From: Halorussus vallis
GTDB lineage: Archaea; Halobacteriota; Halobacteria; Halobacteriales; Haladaptataceae
Direction: 5' to 3'
Assembly: GCF_024138165.1 (NCBI RefSeq)
Contig: NZ_CP100000.1
Coordinates: 930,001-994,000, forward strand
DNA length: 64,000 bases
Shown here: in pieces, positions 2,689 to 63,316 of the stretch
How positions within the stretch are numbered: the stretch's first letter is position 1
How the letters are laid out: the number at the start of each line of letters is the position of its first letter
Notes under the pieces: generated by a model
The model's input: the letters and a program-made list of their open reading frames with translations, nothing else
What the model was told of the DNA's origin: nothing
Database searches by the model: none
Position numbers and translations under genes: made by a program

Positions 2689-3509
2689 GTGGTTCCCTCT
2701 CGTTCGTTCCACCGCGTCTCGACCGCCGCGAGCGCGTCGGGGTCGCCGACCGCCACGAAACTCGGGCCGGTGCCCGACAGCGAGACGCCCCGGACGTCCG
2801 GGAGCGCCTCGACCATCAGGTCGGCCGGAAAGCCCAGCGCCGCGCAGAACGCGAAGCCGTTAACGGTCATCGCGTCCTGATACCGGGCGTCGAGCGCGAG
2901 GTCGGCGACCAGTTCGGCGACCGGCGCGATTCGCTCACAGCGCGAGACGTCGGCGTCGGCGCTGTAGGCGCGCTCGGGCGGCGTCCAGACCAGCACGTCC
3001 CACTCGACCGGTTCGCGGGCGAGGAGTTCGTCGGCGCGGTTGTCGGTGACCGTGACCCCGCCGAGCATGCTCGCGCTGGCGTCGTCGAACGCGCCGGTCA
3101 CCGTCACGCCCGTCTCTCGGGCGGCCCGGACGCCGACGCGGCAGGCGTCCTCGCGCGGGACGTTCCCGGCGAGTCCGAGCGCGTCGAGCGTCGCCATCAC
3201 GGTCGCGTTGGCGGCCGCGCTCGAACTCTTGAGTCCGGCCGCCATCGGCACCTCGCTCTCGGTTCTGACCCGGCCGCCGACCGCGTCCGCCTCGCGGTCG
3301 CCGAATTCGGCGACCGCGAGTTCGACGCAGCGCTCGACGAGGGCGGTGTCGGCGTCGGCGTCCTCGGCGACCTCGCCGGTCACCTCGCCCGAGTCGTCCA
3401 CCGTCACCTCGGCGGTGGTTTCGGCGTCGATGGCGAACGCCGAGCCTTTGCCGGTGGCTAGCGCGTTCAGGACCGTCCCCGCCGCCGGCGCCGTGGCCCG
3501 ACCGTCCAT
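2646..3509 (-). CDS. aroK: Shikimate kinase, archaeal GHMP type
   Basis: The 287-residue protein belongs to the GHMP kinase fold that replaces bacterial AroK in archaea and phosphorylates shikimate with ATP. The signature loop VPMAAGLKSSSAAANATVMA (about residues 88-107) is the GHMP ATP-binding motif, and SLSGTGPSFVAVGD near the C-terminus is motif 3. The start at 3509 (MDGRATAPAAGTVLNALATGKGSAF) places the usual N-terminal strand at residue 8; longer upstream reading lacks support. It precedes and overlaps chorismate mutase, giving a two-gene aromatic amino acid operon on the minus strand. Confidence 0.93.
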   Translation of the reverse strand: MDGRATAPAAGTVLNALATGKGSAFAIDAETTAEVTVDDSGEVTGEVAEDADADTALVERCVELAVAEFGDREADAVGGRVRTESEVPMAAGLKSSSAAANATVMATLDALGLAGNVPREDACRVGVRAARETGVTVTGAFDDASASMLGGVTVTDNRADELLAREPVEWDVLVWTPPERAYSADADVSRCERIAPVAELVADLALDARYQDAMTVNGFAFCAALGFPADLMVEALPDVRGVSLSGTGPSFVAVGDPDALAAVETRWNEREGTTWLTTTRNDGTRTT

Positions 3510-10529: not shown

Positions 10530-10567
10530 CGGCGACCGTCGAACGCGGCCGCGTTCGACGGTCGCCG
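10530..10567. repeat. Perfect 38-bp palindrome, no spacer
   Basis: The 19-base left arm is CGGCGACCGTCGAACGCGG and the right arm is its exact reverse complement with no spacer. It lies in the divergent intergenic region between the amphi-Trp gene and the lipoprotein gene. It is one of at least five such spacer-free palindromes in the window. Confidence 0.9.
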
Positions 10568-12569: not shown

Positions 12570-12601
12570 CGGTTCCCGGTCGGCGTGCCGACCGGGAACC
12601 G
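12570..12601. repeat. Stem-loop with 15-bp arms and 2-nt loop
   Basis: The arms CGGTTCCCGGTCGGC and its exact complement are separated by GT. The hairpin lies between the leftward gene ending at 12647 and the YihY gene start. It could act as a terminator or processing site, or belong to the same palindrome class seen elsewhere in the window. Confidence 0.8.
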
Positions 12602-13489: not shown

Positions 13490-13521
13490 CGGACGCGAGC
13501 GGGCGCGCCCGCTCGCGTCCG
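13490..13521. repeat. Perfect 32-bp palindrome, no spacer
   Basis: The left arm CGGACGCGAGCGGGCG is followed directly by its exact reverse complement. It lies between the helicase stop (13544) and the leftward exported-protein gene, so it sits 3' of the helicase. Like most of the others it is centred on CGCG. Confidence 0.9.
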
Positions 13522-21100: not shown

Positions 21101-23076
21101 CAGATGGGCTTGAGGGTTTCCTCGCCCGACTCGTAACAACGCCCGGCCATCAATGCGGCTTCGAGCGCGTCCTCGACGTCGGCCGGCGTCACGTCGTAGT
21201 TCTGCACGACCGCCGCCATCAGGGGTTCGCGGCCCACGCCGTCGCCGTCGTTGAGTTCCCGCATCGTCTCCATCACGGTGTCTTCGAGGTTATCGGGCTC
21301 CTGTTTGCCGCCCTCGTCGGCAGACTCGGATTCGGGTTCGGGTTCCGATTCGGCCGCCGGTTCCTCGGCGGTGTCGGGTTCGGTCGCCTCGGCCTCCGCC
21401 CCCGCTTCGTGGGCGGCCTCCTCGGCGCCCTCGGCGGGTTCGGCGGCACCGCCGGTTTCCTCGTCGGGGACCGCGTTGGGCGTCTCGGGGGCCTCCGAGG
21501 CGTCCTCGCCCGGCCCCTCGGGCGCCTTCGAGGAGGCGGTCGTCGCGTCGGTGGCCTCCTCGTGGGTCGGTTCGCCGGGTCCGGGTTCGTCGAGTTCGGA
21601 CTGGCCGGGTTCGCCGACGTCGGCGCCCGAGGAGAACTCCAGGCCGTGTTCTTCCTCTATCTGCTGGCGCTCCTCCTCGTCGAACTCGTACATCTCGTCG
21701 CCCGCGCCGGCCGTCCCGAGGTCTTCGTCGGCCTCGGCGTCCTGTTCGGGTTCGAACGACTCGTCGGTCGTCGTCTCCTGTTCGGACTCGACGGCCGGCG
21801 GTTCGTCGTCGCCGATCTCCTCCTGAAGTTCGGCGGCCTCCTCGGCGTCCTCGACCTCAGGTGGCTCGTCCTCCTCGTCGGACGCGTCGACCGTACTGGT
21901 CGGTGCCGCGCCGAGGTCGTCGCCGGCCGCGGATTCGGATTCGGGTTCGGACTCAGGTTCGGTCGCCCCGGCCGACTCGGCCTCGACGGTCTCGGTCGGT
22001 TCCGGTTCGGAACTCCCCTCCGAGACCGCCTCGCTCTCGCCGACTTCCGTCCGGGATTCGGCGGGCGGCGTCTCGGCCTCGGGGCTCATCTCGTCCTCGC
22101 CGGCCGACTCGGACGCCGCGGCCGCGGCGTCCGAGTCGGCGGTGCCTGCGGCGCCAGTGGCGTCGGTGGCCTCGGCGGTGTCGGCGGTGTCGGCGGCGTC
22201 GGCAGTTTCCGCGTCGGCGGCCGACTCCGTCGCCGCGGTGTCGGTCGGCGACGCCGAGGCGTCGCCGCCCGCGCCCGCTTCGGCTTCGGTTTCGATGGCC
22301 GCGAGTTCCTCAGCGCCGGTTTCGGCGTCGCCGAACGAGTAGTCGAGTGCCGCGCTCACCGCGTCGCCGCCCTCGTCGGGCGCGATGTCGAGCGGCCCCA
22401 CCTCGTCGGCGTCTATCTCGCCGGCGACCACGCGCGCGGCGTCTATCGAGAGGTCCCAGACCTCCGCGAGGTACTCCTTGGTCGTGCCGTAGTGGTCGAC
22501 GGCCAGCGGGATGCCGGCGGCGAGGCCGGCGTCGACGCCGCCGGCTTCGAGCGCCGCGCGGAGTTCGTCGCCGCGCTTGCCCGAGTCGAGCGCGTCGGCG
22601 AACGTCGACACCCGGTCGAGGGTGTGCTGGGCGGTCTGGACCACCCAGCGGTCGCGGGTTTCGGCGTCGACGCGGTTGATGGACTCGGGGCGAATCGAGG
22701 TGAACACGCGGTCCGAATCCTCCGGCTGGAACGTCCGAGCCTTGCCGGTCACCGCGACGAACGCCGGCGGATTCGCGCTCTCCAGGAACGCCATTTCGTC
22801 GGGCTGATACTGGCCGGCGTAGACGACGAACGCGCCCGTCGGGTCGACGATGCGGCCACGGAGCACGTCGTCGCTGACCTGCTCGATCTGGGTCAGCACG
22901 CCGACGACGAACAGGCGGTTGACCCGCGCGCCGGTCGGCGTGACGACGTAGTTCGGCGCGCGCTCCTCGTCTGACTCCGAGTAGTCGAGGCTCGCGTCGT
23001 CGTACTCGGCGGCGAAGATTCGCCACGCGACCTCGCGGCGGCCCGCGCCGCCCTGGTCGTCGCCGTTCGAACTCAT
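21100..23076 (-). CDS. rpap1: RPA-associated protein (Rpap1-like) with a long acidic linker
   Basis: The 658-residue protein has an N-terminal OB-fold region (about 10-110: RREVAWRIFAAEYDDASLDY, LRGRIVDPTGAFVVYAGQYQPDE), matching the COG3390 proteins encoded beside haloarchaeal RPA. Residues about 225-585 are a very acidic, Glu/Ala/Thr/Asp-rich disordered linker. A C-terminal winged-helix-like domain (about 592-658: DNLEDTVMETMRELNDGDGVGREPLMAAVVQNYDV) follows. The OB and winged-helix layout parallels eukaryotic RPA32. The ATG overlaps the rpa stop by 4 bp, so the two products are probably made in step and act together on single-stranded DNA. Confidence 0.9.
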   Translation of the reverse strand: MSSNGDDQGGAGRREVAWRIFAAEYDDASLDYSESDEERAPNYVVTPTGARVNRLFVVGVLTQIEQVSDDVLRGRIVDPTGAFVVYAGQYQPDEMAFLESANPPAFVAVTGKARTFQPEDSDRVFTSIRPESINRVDAETRDRWVVQTAQHTLDRVSTFADALDSGKRGDELRAALEAGGVDAGLAAGIPLAVDHYGTTKEYLAEVWDLSIDAARVVAGEIDADEVGPLDIAPDEGGDAVSAALDYSFGDAETGAEELAAIETEAEAGAGGDASASPTDTAATESAADAETADAADTADTAEATDATGAAGTADSDAAAAASESAGEDEMSPEAETPPAESRTEVGESEAVSEGSSEPEPTETVEAESAGATEPESEPESESAAGDDLGAAPTSTVDASDEEDEPPEVEDAEEAAELQEEIGDDEPPAVESEQETTTDESFEPEQDAEADEDLGTAGAGDEMYEFDEEERQQIEEEHGLEFSSGADVGEPGQSELDEPGPGEPTHEEATDATTASSKAPEGPGEDASEAPETPNAVPDEETGGAAEPAEGAEEAAHEAGAEAEATEPDTAEEPAAESEPEPESESADEGGKQEPDNLEDTVMETMRELNDGDGVGREPLMAAVVQNYDVTPADVEDALEAALMAGRCYESGEETLKPI

Positions 23077-29178: not shown

Positions 29179-29214
29179 CGCCCGAGTCGCCGGCGACTGC
29201 CGGCGACTCGGGCG
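29179..29214. terminator. Stem-loop with 16-bp arms downstream of DUF357 gene
   Basis: The left arm CGCCCGAGTCGCCGGC and its exact complement are separated by GACT. It lies between two convergent genes (DUF357 protein and the disordered protein), the right place for a two-way terminator, but only weak T-runs flank it. Confidence 0.6.
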
Positions 29215-42861: not shown

Positions 42862-43833
42862 TCATACCAGTTCATCGATTCGTTGGTGCAGATCCGACGC
42901 GTCGCCGGTGGTGACGTGCGAAGAGAGCACGTCCCGGCAGACGCCCGCGAGCGGTTCGTCGTCGGGGAACGCCGCCACGCCGTCGGCGACGGCGATGGCG
43001 GCGCGGGTGCTGACCGGGACGTCCAACTCCTCGCCGAGCACCCGGACCGCCGAGACGACGTCCTCGACGCGTTCGCGGTCCAAGTCCGAGCGAGCGGCGA
43101 CGATTTCGACCTCGGTTTCGCGACCGTACCGGTCGAGGTGGACCGTGACCAGTCGGTCGAGCAGCGCGTCCTGGGGTTCGTGGACCCCGGCGTACTCCGC
43201 GGAGTTCGAGGTCAGGATCACCCGGAAGTCGGGGTGGACCTCGACCTGACGGTCCTCGCCGCGCTTGCCGGGGAGTTCGAGGACGCCCTCTTCGAGTACC
43301 GACAGCAGGACGTTGTTCGCCGCGGGTTTCGAGCGCGCGAACTCGTTGTAGACGAGCGTCGCGCCCTCTCGGACCGCGACCGTCAGCGGGTTGTCGACCC
43401 ACCGGTCGCGGACGACCTCCTTCTTCTTCACCACGTCGTGGACGAAGGCGTCGCGCTCGGTGTACTGCTCCTTGCCGGCGTACTCGCCGACGAGGTCGGC
43501 GGTGTCGAGTTCGGCGTCGCCGTTCACCCAGACCGTCGGCGCGTCGCGGCCGCGGGCGACCGCGAGCGCGAGCGCGGTCTTGCCGACCCCGGACGGGCCG
43601 ACGACGTGGACCGGTCGGTCGGCGTCCAGCCACCGCTCGACGCGCCGGCGGTACGCCGCGACCTCGTCGGTTTCGACGAACTCGCGGTCGGTCGAGTCGG
43701 CCGACTCGACCGACCGCGACCCTTCGCGCTCGTCGTCGCCGAGCGACTTCGACGTCTTCCGGGTCCGTTTGGACTCGCGGTCCGACCGAATCTTCGGTCC
43801 CCGGACCTTCCGCTCGCGGCCGGAGTCGCTCAT
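42862..43833 (-). CDS. gvpN: Gas vesicle protein GvpN (AAA ATPase)
   Basis: The 323-residue protein is an MoxR-like AAA ATPase that helps gas vesicles grow. Walker A is GPSGVGKTALALAVA (about residue 80). LVYNEFARSKPAANNVLLSVLEEGVLELPG contains the Walker B region, and ILTSNSAEYAGVHEPQDALLDRLVTVHLD the sensor 1 and Arg finger. The N-terminal 50 residues are basic and disordered. The start codon at 43833 is directly adjacent to the gvpA stop, so gvpC, which usually lies between gvpA and gvpN in haloarchaea, is absent here. Confidence 0.96.
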   Translation of the reverse strand: MSDSGRERKVRGPKIRSDRESKRTRKTSKSLGDDEREGSRSVESADSTDREFVETDEVAAYRRRVERWLDADRPVHVVGPSGVGKTALALAVARGRDAPTVWVNGDAELDTADLVGEYAGKEQYTERDAFVHDVVKKKEVVRDRWVDNPLTVAVREGATLVYNEFARSKPAANNVLLSVLEEGVLELPGKRGEDRQVEVHPDFRVILTSNSAEYAGVHEPQDALLDRLVTVHLDRYGRETEVEIVAARSDLDRERVEDVVSAVRVLGEELDVPVSTRAAIAVADGVAAFPDDEPLAGVCRDVLSSHVTTGDASDLHQRIDELV

Positions 43834-44921: not shown

Positions 44922-45175
44922 TGTTCGTGGTCGACGACCTGCTCGTCCGACCGTTCGTCGGCCTGCTCGACGTGTTGCACACGATGGCGCTCGACGAGAT
45001 GTACGACGTCGAGTCGATCCGCGACGACGTCAAGGAGAACCGCCTGCTGTACGAACTCGGCGAGATACCCCGCGAGGAGTACGAGCGCCGAGACGAGGAA
45101 CTTCGCGAGGAACTCGAGTTCGCCGAGCGCGTCCGTACGGAACTGGCCAGCGGGAAGATAGAGGTGAAACGCTGA
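44921..45175 (+). CDS. gvpG: Gas vesicle protein GvpG
   Basis: The 84-residue protein ([72 protein letters not shown]) is the GvpG assembly factor, mostly coiled-coil helix after a hydrophobic N-terminus. Its ATG overlaps the gvpF stop and its stop overlaps the gvpH start, so the F-G-H genes are translationally coupled. Confidence 0.95.
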   Translation: MFVVDDLLVRPFVGLLDVLHTMALDEMYDVESIRDDVKENRLLYELGEIPREEYERRDEELREELEFAERVRTELASGKIEVKR

Positions 45176-45813
45176 TGGGCGAGCGACCCGACGACGGCGA
45201 CGACTCGGACGACCGACCCGAGGACCGCCGAGGCGACGGCGAGACGCCCGACCGCGACGAGGAGGCGACCGACAGGCGGCGACCGGCCGACGAGCACGGC
45301 CGAAACTCGGCGAAGCCGAGTTTCGGCCTGCGAGACGGGTTCGGCCTCCTGACCGACCTCCTGCGGGGACTCGACGCGAGCGACCGACGCCGCGAGTCCG
45401 GGCGGTTCGGCGGCGACCGGGCGAACGTCGACTACGACGTGAGCGTCGGCCTCGGCACCGGACCTGACAAGCGCGACGGCGACCGCGACCGCCGCGCGCG
45501 GCGGTCGCGGTCGCCCGCCGAGCGTCGCGTCGGCGAACGCTCGCGCACGTCCCGTCCCCGGAGCGGCGACTTCGGCGACTACCTGGTGACGAGTCGTCTC
45601 GAGGAAGACGGCCTGGTCGTGACCGCCGACCTGCCCGACGTGTCGGCCGAGGAACTGACCGTCGGGTTCGCCCGGGACCGCGAGGAACTCGTGGTGGGCG
45701 TCGGCGACGGCGTCGTCGAGCGCGTCGCGCTCCCGTGGCCCGCGAGCGCGACCAAGACGACGTTCAGGAACGGCGTGCTGGAGATACGGCTCCGGGAGGA
45801 CGCCGACGCATGA
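45175..45813 (+). CDS. gvpH: Gas vesicle protein GvpH (Hsp20-like) with palindromic linker insertions
   Basis: The C-terminal 85 residues (DFGDYLVTSRLEEDGLVVTADLPDVSAEELTVGFARDREELVVGVGDGVVERVALPWPASATKTTFRNGVLEIRLREDAD) have the alpha-crystallin-type sheet of GvpH, proposed to keep GvpA soluble. The first 120 residues are a very charged Asp/Arg-rich linker. Two DNA palindromes lie in it in frame: 45298-45328 (encoding GRNSAKPSFGL) and 45478-45515 (encoding an Arg-rich DGDRDRRARRSRSP block). At 212 residues it is longer than the roughly 180 of Halobacterium GvpH; these insertions explain most of the extra length. Confidence 0.93.
   Translation: MGERPDDGDDSDDRPEDRRGDGETPDRDEEATDRRRPADEHGRNSAKPSFGLRDGFGLLTDLLRGLDASDRRRESGRFGGDRANVDYDVSVGLGTGPDKRDGDRDRRARRSRSPAERRVGERSRTSRPRSGDFGDYLVTSRLEEDGLVVTADLPDVSAEELTVGFARDREELVVGVGDGVVERVALPWPASATKTTFRNGVLEIRLREDADA
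45298..45328. repeat. Stem-loop with 14-bp arms inside gvpH
   Basis: The arms GGCCGAAACTCGGC and its exact complement surround a GAA loop. The unit is read in frame within the gvpH linker. Confidence 0.85.
45478..45515. repeat. Perfect 38-bp palindrome inside gvpH
   Basis: The left arm GGCGACCGCGACCGCCGCG is followed directly by its exact reverse complement, with no spacer. It is read in frame and yields an Asp/Arg-rich segment in the disordered linker of GvpH. Confidence 0.92.
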
Positions 45814-47026: not shown

Positions 47027-47372
47027 CCTGGACGACGACGGCGAGGGCGTCCGCTCGGGGCTGACCGCGCTGGTCGTGACCGTCGTCGACCTGCTGGTCG
47101 ACGCGCTCGAACGCGAGGCAATCCGGCGGATGGAGGGCGAGAACCTGACCGACGAGGAGGTCGAGCGACTCGGTCGCCAACTCGCGCAGTTGGAGGACGA
47201 ACTCGAGGACCTGAAGGAGCGGGAGGGCATCGACGCGGAGGTCGAGGACCTCCGGGGACAACTCGACGGCTTCGTCAGGGACGCCATCCAGGAGATAGAC
47301 GCGGAGCCCCGGTCCGGCGGGCGAGCGCCCGAGACGAGTACCGCGACCCAAACGGAGGCCGGGCGACGATGA
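47013..47372 (+). CDS. gvpK: Gas vesicle protein GvpK
   Basis: The 119-residue protein ([74 protein letters not shown]) matches GvpK, with its hydrophobic first helix and coiled-coil second half. The start is GTG 47013, inside the end of gvpJ (14-bp overlap). Its stop overlaps the gvpL start, so the products are probably made together. It is needed for vesicle formation in haloarchaea. Confidence 0.95.
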
Positions 47373-48175
47373 GCGTCGAGGACGCCGACGGCGACCGACC
47401 CGCGGATTTCGAAACCGGGCGCTACCTCTACTGCGTCGTCGCCGTCGGGGACGGCGACGACGCAGACGGTGAGTCCGCCGCGTCGGGCGACGCCCTCGCC
47501 TTCGACGCCGACGGCGTCGAAGGCGAGTCTGTCTACGCGATTCGGGCGGACGGGCTGGCCGCGCTCGTTCACGAAACCGACTCGCTGTACGACGCCGACG
47601 ACATAACCCGCGTGCGCGAGTGGCTGCTGGACCACCAGTCGGTCGTCGACGAGGCGGGCGAGGCGTTCGGCACGCCGCTTCCCTTCCGCTTCGACACGGT
47701 CGTCACGGGCGACGACGAGGCGGTCCGCGAGTGGCTCCGAGACGCGAGCGACGACCTGCACGCCCACCTCGCCGACCTCGCGGGCCACTGGGAGTACCGC
47801 GTCGAGGTCGCCCGGACCGACGACCCCGAGTTCGAGGACGACCGTCTCGACGAACTGGCGGCCGAGATCGAGGCGGCCGACGAGGGCCGAGCCTTCCTGC
47901 TCGAAAAGCAGCGCGACCGCCGCCGGACCGAACTCCGGCGGGCGGCCGACGACGACGTCGCGGCCGACGCCCGCGAGCGCCTCCGACCGCTGGCCTGGGA
48001 GTTCGAGGAGAACGACGCCGCCGACGAGCACGTCGCGGCGTCGTTCTCGCTGCTAGCCCACGAGGACGACGAGGGAGCCATCGGCGAGCAACTGGACGCG
48101 GTGGCGGCCCGCGACGGCATCGAGGTCCGGTTCACCGGGCCGTGGCCGCCCTACTCGTTCGCGCCCGAGCTATGA
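47369..48175 (+). CDS. gvpL: Gas vesicle protein GvpL
   Basis: The 268-residue protein belongs to the GvpF/L family ([69 protein letters not shown]) and ends [14 protein letters not shown]. GvpL contacts most other accessory Gvp proteins during assembly. A variable acidic insertion ([27 protein letters not shown]) follows the first strand. The ATG at 47369 overlaps the gvpK stop (ATGA). Confidence 0.95.
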
Positions 48176-50448: not shown

Positions 50449-50992
50449 ACGGTACGCTAATCCCCGCCAGTTAAAAGAAGTTATCCACCCACCTTTTGCT
50501 GCGCTCAGCGATGCGGCGAAGCCGCATCGCTTCGCTGGCAAAATCTGGACCAAAACCGCGGTGTCTCCGAAAATCGGAGATTTTCGGGATGACGAGAGAG
50601 CTTCGCTCTCTCGAACCACTCCTTCCACCCGGCCTCCGGCCGGGCGTCGGTCCGCGCCGCGTCCGCTCGCTCACTCCGTTCGCTCACGGCGGGAGACGGT
50701 GTACTACCGCACGAGGTCGATGGAGCTACGCGAGTGTGAGTTCGGGTTCGCGCATACTCTACTTCGGTCTGGCGCGCGCTGGCGGTTGCGACGGCGGTCC
50801 GCAGGGCGCGAAGCGCCCGCACGAGTGCAAGGGCGGAAATCGCACCAGCAGTATTAGATGCGACTGCGCCGAGACGCACCGCGTCTCGGCGCAGTCGCGT
50901 GTCCTTTTTTGGTCCAGATTTTTTCGAGGAGAGGTGGCTGACGCGCCGCAGGCGCGTCAGCGACCCGACGAAGAAAAAAGGTGGAGGAGGAG
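50449..50992. repeat. Hairpin-rich intergenic unit with inverted 16-bp ends
   Basis: This 544-bp gene-free stretch holds seven perfect stem-loops with 3-nt loops: 50507-50531, 50567-50587, 50593-50613, 50628-50644, 50804-50818, 50860-50898 (18-bp arms) and 50937-50961. AAAATCTGGACCAAAA at 50540-50555 recurs inverted at 50907-50922. Outside each copy lie another hairpin and then CCACCTTTT in mirror orientation (left from about 50489, right near 50976-50984). I interpret it as a mobile or structured non-coding element upstream of SBDS; it contains no coding frame. Confidence 0.8.
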
Positions 50993-51938: not shown

Positions 51939-52620
51939 ACCCGCCGATTGGGGCGTTCGCGGGAAGGGTTTGCCGGTCGAGGGTCGCCGGGTCGACCGCG
52001 TCCGGACCGGTCGCGACCGGTCCGGACGCGGCCAGAATCCGCCGGCGGCGGTACGAACCTGCTGTGCGGTCGGGCGGCGACGGTCGATTCGGGCCGACGG
52101 CCACCGCCTATTTAAATGGCTCGTGCATTGAACTGTGCTACCGAAACGCGCGCACCGGCGACGTCCATCACTCGTCGCAGTAACCGGGGTTCAATAGAAT
52201 AATATCATACTATAAGTCGTGCGAATCGGGCCAACAGTTATATATCGACTCATCCCATGTATTAAATAGTATCGGTGGTAGCGGCCCACGCGGTACGAGG
52301 TAACGTACACCATTCACCCGTTTGCCCTCGGTTGGTCCCGTCGTTCGTCGCCGTGACGTCGCCGCGAGCGGGGTGTGGGATGGCACGCACATGATAAGCC
52401 AGAAACGGAGCGCCCTGCCGGTGGGCAGGGCCGAACAGCGGTCCCGAAGTGGGGAGTGGCAGCGTCTGTACGACGCGGACGACGAGCGGCAGGTCCCCGC
52501 GTCGACCGCCGGAGCGTCGTGTGCTTCCGTCCACCGAATACTCCGACCCTCGGATTCGATCCGACGGGTCTGCCATCCGCGTTCTCTCCCGCCTGCCCCA
52601 ACGAAACAACACGTGATACA
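51939..52620. promoter_or_regulatory. Long gene-free leader upstream of prkA1
   Basis: This 682-bp stretch contains a perfect palindrome (51996-52031). It is followed by a strongly AT-rich zone (52193-52275) with several TATA-like boxes, such as TTATATAT near 52239 and AATAATATC at 52199-52207, then about 340 bp of GC-richer DNA to the ATG. No coding frame is convincing. A long 5' leader for the prkA operon is likely and could carry regulation. Confidence 0.6.
51996..52031. repeat. Perfect 36-bp palindrome, no spacer
   Basis: The left arm CCGCGTCCGGACCGGTCG is followed directly by its exact reverse complement. It lies upstream of the DUF5820 gene and is centred on CGCG like most of the spacer-free palindromes. 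Confidence 0.92.
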
Positions 52621-56981: not shown

Positions 56982-57067
56982 ACGGAACGATGCCCGGAGA
57001 ACGGCCGCGCGGACCGCCCGCGGGCGGTCCGCGCGGCGTCGAGCGAGGTGAACCGAGATGGGACTGA
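56972..57067. repeat. Palindromic insertion with 10-bp direct repeats between prkA2 and yhbH
   Basis: ATGGGACTGA occurs at 56972-56981, where it contains the prkA2 stop, and again at 57058-57067, where it is the start of yhbH. Between them are 76 bp with a perfect 34-bp palindrome at 57004-57037 (left arm GCCGCGCGGACCGCCCG). Removing one repeat and the insert would restore a 10-bp gene overlap. Confidence 0.85.
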
Positions 57068-63058: not shown

Positions 63059-63316
63059 ATGACGGGCGACGGTCCGACCGGACGGGATACGCTCCGCGAC
63101 GCGTTCCGGGTCTGGGACGTGAACCGAGCGAATCAGGAGGCCGTCCTGGTGAGTTCGGACGACCAGCACTACGCGGTTCCGCTTCCGGACGAGCACGCCG
63201 ACCTTCTCGAAGCGTTGGCGGAGTCCGGCGGGACGCTCGACGCGACGCTCGTCCCGTCCGACGGGCCGACGTCGTGGGCGGTCGACGCCGTCGACGGCGT
63301 CGACCGCACCGGATAG
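63059..63316 (+). CDS. Haloarchaeal hypothetical protein, 85 aa
   Basis: The 85-residue protein (MTGDGPTGRDTLRDAFRVWDVNRANQEAVLVSSDDQHYAVPLPDEHADLLEALAESGGTLDATLVPSDG) starts at ATG 63059. It is a small acidic alpha/beta domain of unknown function. No metal-binding or membrane features are visible. The region upstream to the beta-helix gene (62,822-63,058) is AT-richer, with TATA-like boxes serving the divergent genes. Confidence 0.65.
   Translation: MTGDGPTGRDTLRDAFRVWDVNRANQEAVLVSSDDQHYAVPLPDEHADLLEALAESGGTLDATLVPSDGPTSWAVDAVDGVDRTG

Follow-up and report, generated by a model that had tools for sequence, protein, structure and literature searches.

Rickettsia palindromic elements are families of related copies, and the palindromes we describe here in the archaeal genus Halorussus resemble them in lying in frame within protein-coding genes, but have no common sequence. 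Hairpins formed by template switching are described in PMC8794818, and quasipalindrome correction, following the Ripley model, in PMC8794818 and PMC8604942. In Saccharomyces cerevisiae, template switching was found in 39 protein-coding genes across the strains studied, and inversion of the loop is a hallmark of the process in yeast (PMC8604942). The Halorussus palindromes share with quasipalindrome correction the passage from imperfect to perfect inverted repeats with one arm as the template, the short spacers, spacer inversion, recurrence and effects on coding sequence. They differ from the 39 yeast genes in number, since extrapolation gives a single Halorussus vallis genome ~700 perfect palindromes whose arms reach at least 15 bp, and in the sharp differences that exist within the genus.

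The nearest published case is that of the mitochondrial genes of Nematomorpha, which carry coding palindromes of up to 284 bp whose arms encode conserved residues, and for which the authors consider template switching (PMC6649704). Both cases have many perfect, translated inverted repeats that are rapidly gained and lost, midpoints common to several species and a bias against one codon phase. Unlike those of Nematomorpha, the Halorussus palindromes are 28-46 bp long, belong to an archaeal chromosome and sit mostly in linkers and termini, and sister species of low density allow inherited arms to be distinguished from derived ones. A survey of prokaryotes found a palindrome excess that is weaker in archaea (PMC4060949), and the work of Ladoukakis and Eyre-Walker, as far as that survey relates it, showed a small excess of 6-9 bp repeats in coding sequence. 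The short inverted repeats of prokaryotes are likewise in excess genome-wide, in coding and non-coding sequence, and some blame template switching for them (PMC4060949), but the arms in Halorussus measure 14-23 bp, for which the control expectation is close to zero. Within the literature covered, which leaves out most subscription journals, we found no haloarchaeal or Halorussus case; the process itself is already known, and what appears to be new is how extensive it is in Halorussus and how its pattern differs from species to species.

The window analysed here is a 64,000-nt stretch of the H. vallis chromosome (NZ_CP100000.1, positions 930,001-994,000; coordinates below count from its first base, and palindromes are given without a strand). 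It contains gvpH at 45175-45813 on the plus strand, encoding 212 aa (Pfam PF05455, E 7e-19). The sequence-only reading had placed two palindromes in frame inside this gene, and both are present as described, at the same coordinates, in a frame that stays open from 45175 to 45813 without a stop. Palindrome 1 (45298-45328) reads GGCCGAAACTCGGC-GAA-GCCGAGTTTCGGCC, with arms of 14 bp and the 3-nt loop GAA, and palindrome 2 (45478-45515), GDRDRRARRSRSP, is a perfect 38 nt with arms of 19 bp and no loop. Because codon shuffling of gvpH gave an arm of at least 14 only once in 3000 shuffles (that arm was 15) and an arm of 16 in none of 3000, finding two of them in a single gene far exceeds chance expectation. 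They are also specific to this lineage and lie in a variable linker: perfect hairpins whose arms reach 11 or more are absent from all 25 gvpH-like relatives, and the gvpH of the sister species, at 52% identity, lacks most of the left arm of palindrome 1. In the alignment with that sister, SFGLRDGF of H. vallis stands opposite AFGLRDGF; the right arm is formed by the conserved Phe-Gly-Leu codons and the left arm (HGRNSA) is extra. We read the left arm as a probable derived copy, in reverse complement, of the right one. Palindrome 2 falls within the Arg-rich part of the linker, where neither arm is assignable as inherited. The two units had also been put forward as the source of the additional length of GvpH, which they account for in part and not as a whole.

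Besides the gvpH pair, the window has 16 perfect hairpins, no two alike in sequence, whose arms measure 12-19 bp; a scan for arms of at least 11 bp counts 24 perfect hairpins. One perfect palindrome (43682-43719; arms 19, loop 0) is in frame in the variable N-terminus of a probable gvpN (ORF 42862-43833, minus strand), and two hairpins are in frame in a probable gvpL (ORF 47369-48175), at 47431-47465 (arms 16, loop 3) and 47495-47527 (arms 16, loop 1). Another perfect palindrome with arms of 19 and no loop occupies 22103-22140, where a minus-strand ORF of 659 aa has a low-complexity stretch of Ala, Asp and Glu, and a third, at 10530-10567, is either upstream of a transporter-like ORF, whose start is uncertain, or in an N-terminal extension of it. 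At 3291-3320 a perfect palindrome (arms 15, loop 0) lies in a minus-strand ORF that resembles, by eye, shikimate kinase, and a hairpin at 12570-12601 (arms 15, loop 2) is at or upstream of an ORF start. The window scan further gave perfect, loopless palindromes at 13490-13521 (arms 16), 51996-52031 (arms 18), 57004-57037 (arms 17) and 63278-63307 (arms 15), and hairpins at 29179-29214 (arms 16, loop 4) and 50860-50898 (arms 18, loop 3).

That similar palindromes might occur in frame in other genes of this genome, a possibility raised together with the original claim, is borne out, as many other H. vallis genes carry them. Across 400 kb of the chromosome, a search for arms of at least 12 and loops of at most 12 yields 99 hairpins, compared with 3 in an order-2 and 0 in an order-5 Markov control. 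With loops of 0-4 and arms of at least 12, 81 hairpins are perfect, each with its own sequence, and the 55 that have arms of at least 15 would correspond to the ~700 in the whole 5.05 Mb genome. At an arm of 16 and a loop of at most 4, 50 perfect hairpins compare with 0 in codon-shuffled controls; this count and the gvpH shuffles rule out chance arising from codon usage. The innermost 3-7 bp of the stem are ~76-93% GC (about 90%), against 66% for the genome, loop lengths are almost exclusively 0-4, and arms drop steeply past 20, an anatomy that would fit a short GC-rich stem nucleating the hairpin, which is then lengthened by 10-15 nt. Palindromes with arms of at least 14 in predicted genes are distributed 16/16/3 over the codon phases, and the least populated phase yields mirrored codons that are unusual under the codon usage of this genome.

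From these comparisons of sequence, the gvpH palindromes are probably scars of template-switch mutations, that is, of fold-back copying or quasipalindrome correction. During replication or repair, a growing strand that meets a short GC-rich inverted repeat would fold back on itself or jump to the other strand, copy ~10-15 more bases in the reverse-complement sense and then return to its own template. The inherited arm would stay, and its mirror image would either take the place of the adjoining sequence or be added to it, to give a perfect palindrome of ~28-46 bp whose loop is 0-4. Coding constraint would then act as a filter, so that survivors would be those whose phase and length keep a usable frame, mostly in linkers and termini. 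Such events would presumably take place at replication forks and involve intrastrand hairpin priming. What is found in Halorussus has the marks of template switching: perfect or near-perfect inverted repeats with short spacers, far above chance; an inherited arm beside a reverse-complement arm, clear in single cases and in a statistical asymmetry, with gvpH palindrome 2 falling outside this assignment; and recurrence at one site, in the menD of four species, together with one spacer inversion.

The single cases come from alignments with related species. Replacement is seen in species G010 (L274:11681-11710), where the left arm GCGGCGTTTCGGGCC is the same as in its sister G008, while at the right arm, the reverse complement of the left, G008 differs, and in H. 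amylolyticus (L068:17572), where the right arm takes the place of the relatives' GGCGATTTCCGAAGT with length unchanged. Insertion is seen in menD of H. amylolyticus (L068:11072), which has 9 nt more than H. ruber, and in G008 (B230849), where the right arm is conserved, the left arm is new and the net gain is 15 nt. A388825 is a further case in which one arm is inherited and the other is its reverse complement, and near-palindromes have been corrected without change of length at A372673 and A381207. The menD site (L018:10847-10877, L068:11072-11108, L241:9800 and L245:9825) is a perfect palindrome in G000 (H. vallis), G006, G010 and G011 (H. amylolyticus), and in each of them the right arm mirrors the left-arm variant of its own species; none of the 13 further species sampled has a perfect version, that of G017 being imperfect. 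Judged by this recurrence, the menD site is a putative mutation hotspot. The menD of another species, G014 (L223), has one in-frame TGA and a split search match, which may reflect a sequencing error or a pseudogene. Finally, G010 and G008 have a palindrome in common (L292:12026-12063 and L311:240-271) whose arms covary and whose 2-nt loop is inverted, TT/AA. This loop inversion, the only one seen, directly records template switching that happened repeatedly, or possibly marks a structured RNA. Replacement, insertion, correction, recurrence and loop inversion are all predicted by template switching.

The asymmetry between arms also holds statistically. For 51 palindromes with orthologous flanks, a set whose rows are partly non-independent since the same gene was sampled in several species, the better and worse arms have identities of 0.72 and 0.50 to relatives, compared with 0.87 and 0.76 for random windows of the same loci (p = 5e-7 for the gap). 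Both arms are thus less conserved than random windows. For the better arm this is expected, since survivors sit in linkers that vary and some palindromes have both arms in sequence that relatives lack, but it departs from a simple picture of one arm left unchanged and so speaks against template switching. Also against it, neither arm of a 46-bp palindrome in a METTL5-like gene aligns to relatives, and the intermediate is therefore missing there. Two otherwise conserved proteins, the METTL5-like methyltransferase (L020:7221-7898) and a ThiD-like protein (L011:11011-12522), have inserts of ~20-30 residues that contain or flank palindromes and that relatives lack. Some protein insertions in Halorussus may originate in template switching.

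Symmetry could instead come from an extruded cruciform or a processed hairpin whose arms undergo conversion or are repaired against each other, as in fold-back break repair, and not from a polymerase changing template. The end products look alike, and the two are hard to separate by sequence alone. For an arm of 16, H. vallis has 50 perfect hairpins, 27 with one mismatch and 26 with two, the imperfect ones being in excess as well, and a series of 0, 1 and 2 mismatches is present in the high-density species. Such a series is consistent with ongoing birth and decay or with some re-homogenisation, and the surplus of perfect over one-mismatch copies also fits active homogenisation. Conversion requires, however, an inverted repeat that already exists, whereas a wholly new mirror arm requires synthesis on the wrong template, and we consider this origin unlikely.

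Palindromes of this kind are very unevenly distributed. With arms of at least 15 and loops of at most 4, none occurs in 75 homologous loci of haloarchaea outside Halorussus (1.57 Mb). Within the genus, to which the named best matches of the men operon belong, density ranges from 0 to ~26 per 100 kb: 26 in G006, 21 in H. amylolyticus, 14 in H. vallis, 7.5 in G002 and 5 to 0 in the others, with zero in H. aquaticus (G004), G008, G009, G012, G013, G014, G016 and G017 in samples of 14-82 kb. Larger samples, of 400 kb each, corrected the first figures to 9 in G010 (2.3 per 100 kb) and 2 in G008 (0.5 per 100 kb). High- and zero-density species are interleaved on a 19-gene tree, in which H. vallis is placed beside G017, with zero, and H. 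amylolyticus beside G009, also with zero, at a support of only 0.68. The 60 kb of G017 would hold ~8 palindromes at the density of H. vallis, and none was counted.

This distribution also bears on whether selection keeps the hairpins or cruciforms for a function in the structure of DNA, the folding of mRNA or regulation, their symmetry being preserved by compensatory changes. The covarying arms at menD and at L292/L311, and the presence of two sites in common in non-sister species, are what such selection would produce. Positions are mostly not conserved across species, however, several palindromes occupy poorly conserved linkers of unrelated genes, decayed copies exist, and the zero-density species manage without palindromes. 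Per base, palindromes are moreover commoner outside predicted genes (26 in 27% of the sequence) than in coding sequence (39 in 73%), which argues against a coding-related function; the 73% is the coverage of our own gene prediction, so that the non-coding counts include missed genes. Maintenance by selection is, on balance, very improbable.

The sequence-only reading had likened the gvpH palindromes to a unit that spreads as in Rickettsia. Mobile in-frame elements of that type would explain why the palindromes are in frame, lineage-specific, located in disordered linkers and present in many genes, and why alignable sites are net longer than relatives in 51% of cases compared with 18% of random windows. 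Length is gained at some sites, however, and is unchanged in several other cases. Palindromes 1 and 2 are each single-copy, a genome search that allowed up to 3 mismatches finding no second match, and where alignment is possible the new arm is copied in reverse complement from the adjacent inherited arm, which serves as its template. Among 80 arms, 3 of 3160 pairs have a 12-mer in common, against 0.2 expected for random segments, a slight surplus that fits the high GC of the arms rather than common descent, and no dispersed family of related copies was found. Since the palindromes form no sequence family, an element of the Rickettsia type is refuted as a family of sequences, and mobile elements in any such sense are extremely unlikely. 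Fold-back chimeras are a known artefact of amplification, but an origin in sequencing, amplification or assembly is scarcely credible given that reading frames stay open, the phase bias tracks codon usage, assemblies under separate names (H. amylolyticus, H. ruber) contain palindromes and shared sites show species-specific covariation.

If template switching made the palindromes, the differences between species call for an account of their own. Some Halorussus lineages would have a hereditary state in which the rate of template switching is much higher, a reading drawn from palindrome density alone. We tentatively suggest, at a little short of an even chance, that this mutator state has gone on and off several times in the genus, leaving hundreds of mirror-image, multi-base mutations per genome and acting as a main source of new linker sequence in proteins. 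A past burst followed by slow decay may be an alternative. In 18 genomes of the genus, no gene correlates with density among those encoding PolY, MutS, B-family polymerase, reverse transcriptase and a Rad50 motif. A PolY-family polymerase is present in 17 of the 18, missing only from a genome that is 62% complete, and MutS copy number is alike in all of them, so neither is a candidate cause. B-family polymerase matches number seven in H. vallis, several on small contigs (C4, C5), and one to four in relatives; copy number is highest in H. vallis and not in the other high-density species, and it too was rejected as the cause. No reverse transcriptase was found in any of the 18 genomes, and the Rad50 zinc-hook model, which gives no match in the haloarchaeal control genome, is uninformative for Halorussus.

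Isolated, rare events are the form in which template switching usually comes to notice; in these culturable archaea it appears to be dominant and genome-wide, with related species of near-zero density as natural controls. The finding also cautions against labelling a palindrome that lies in frame in one of these genomes as a mobile element or a regulatory hairpin. The genus lets one ask which polymerase, nuclease or single-strand-binding factor governs fold-back copying, by what route several codons can change at once, and in what way such changes build disordered linkers.
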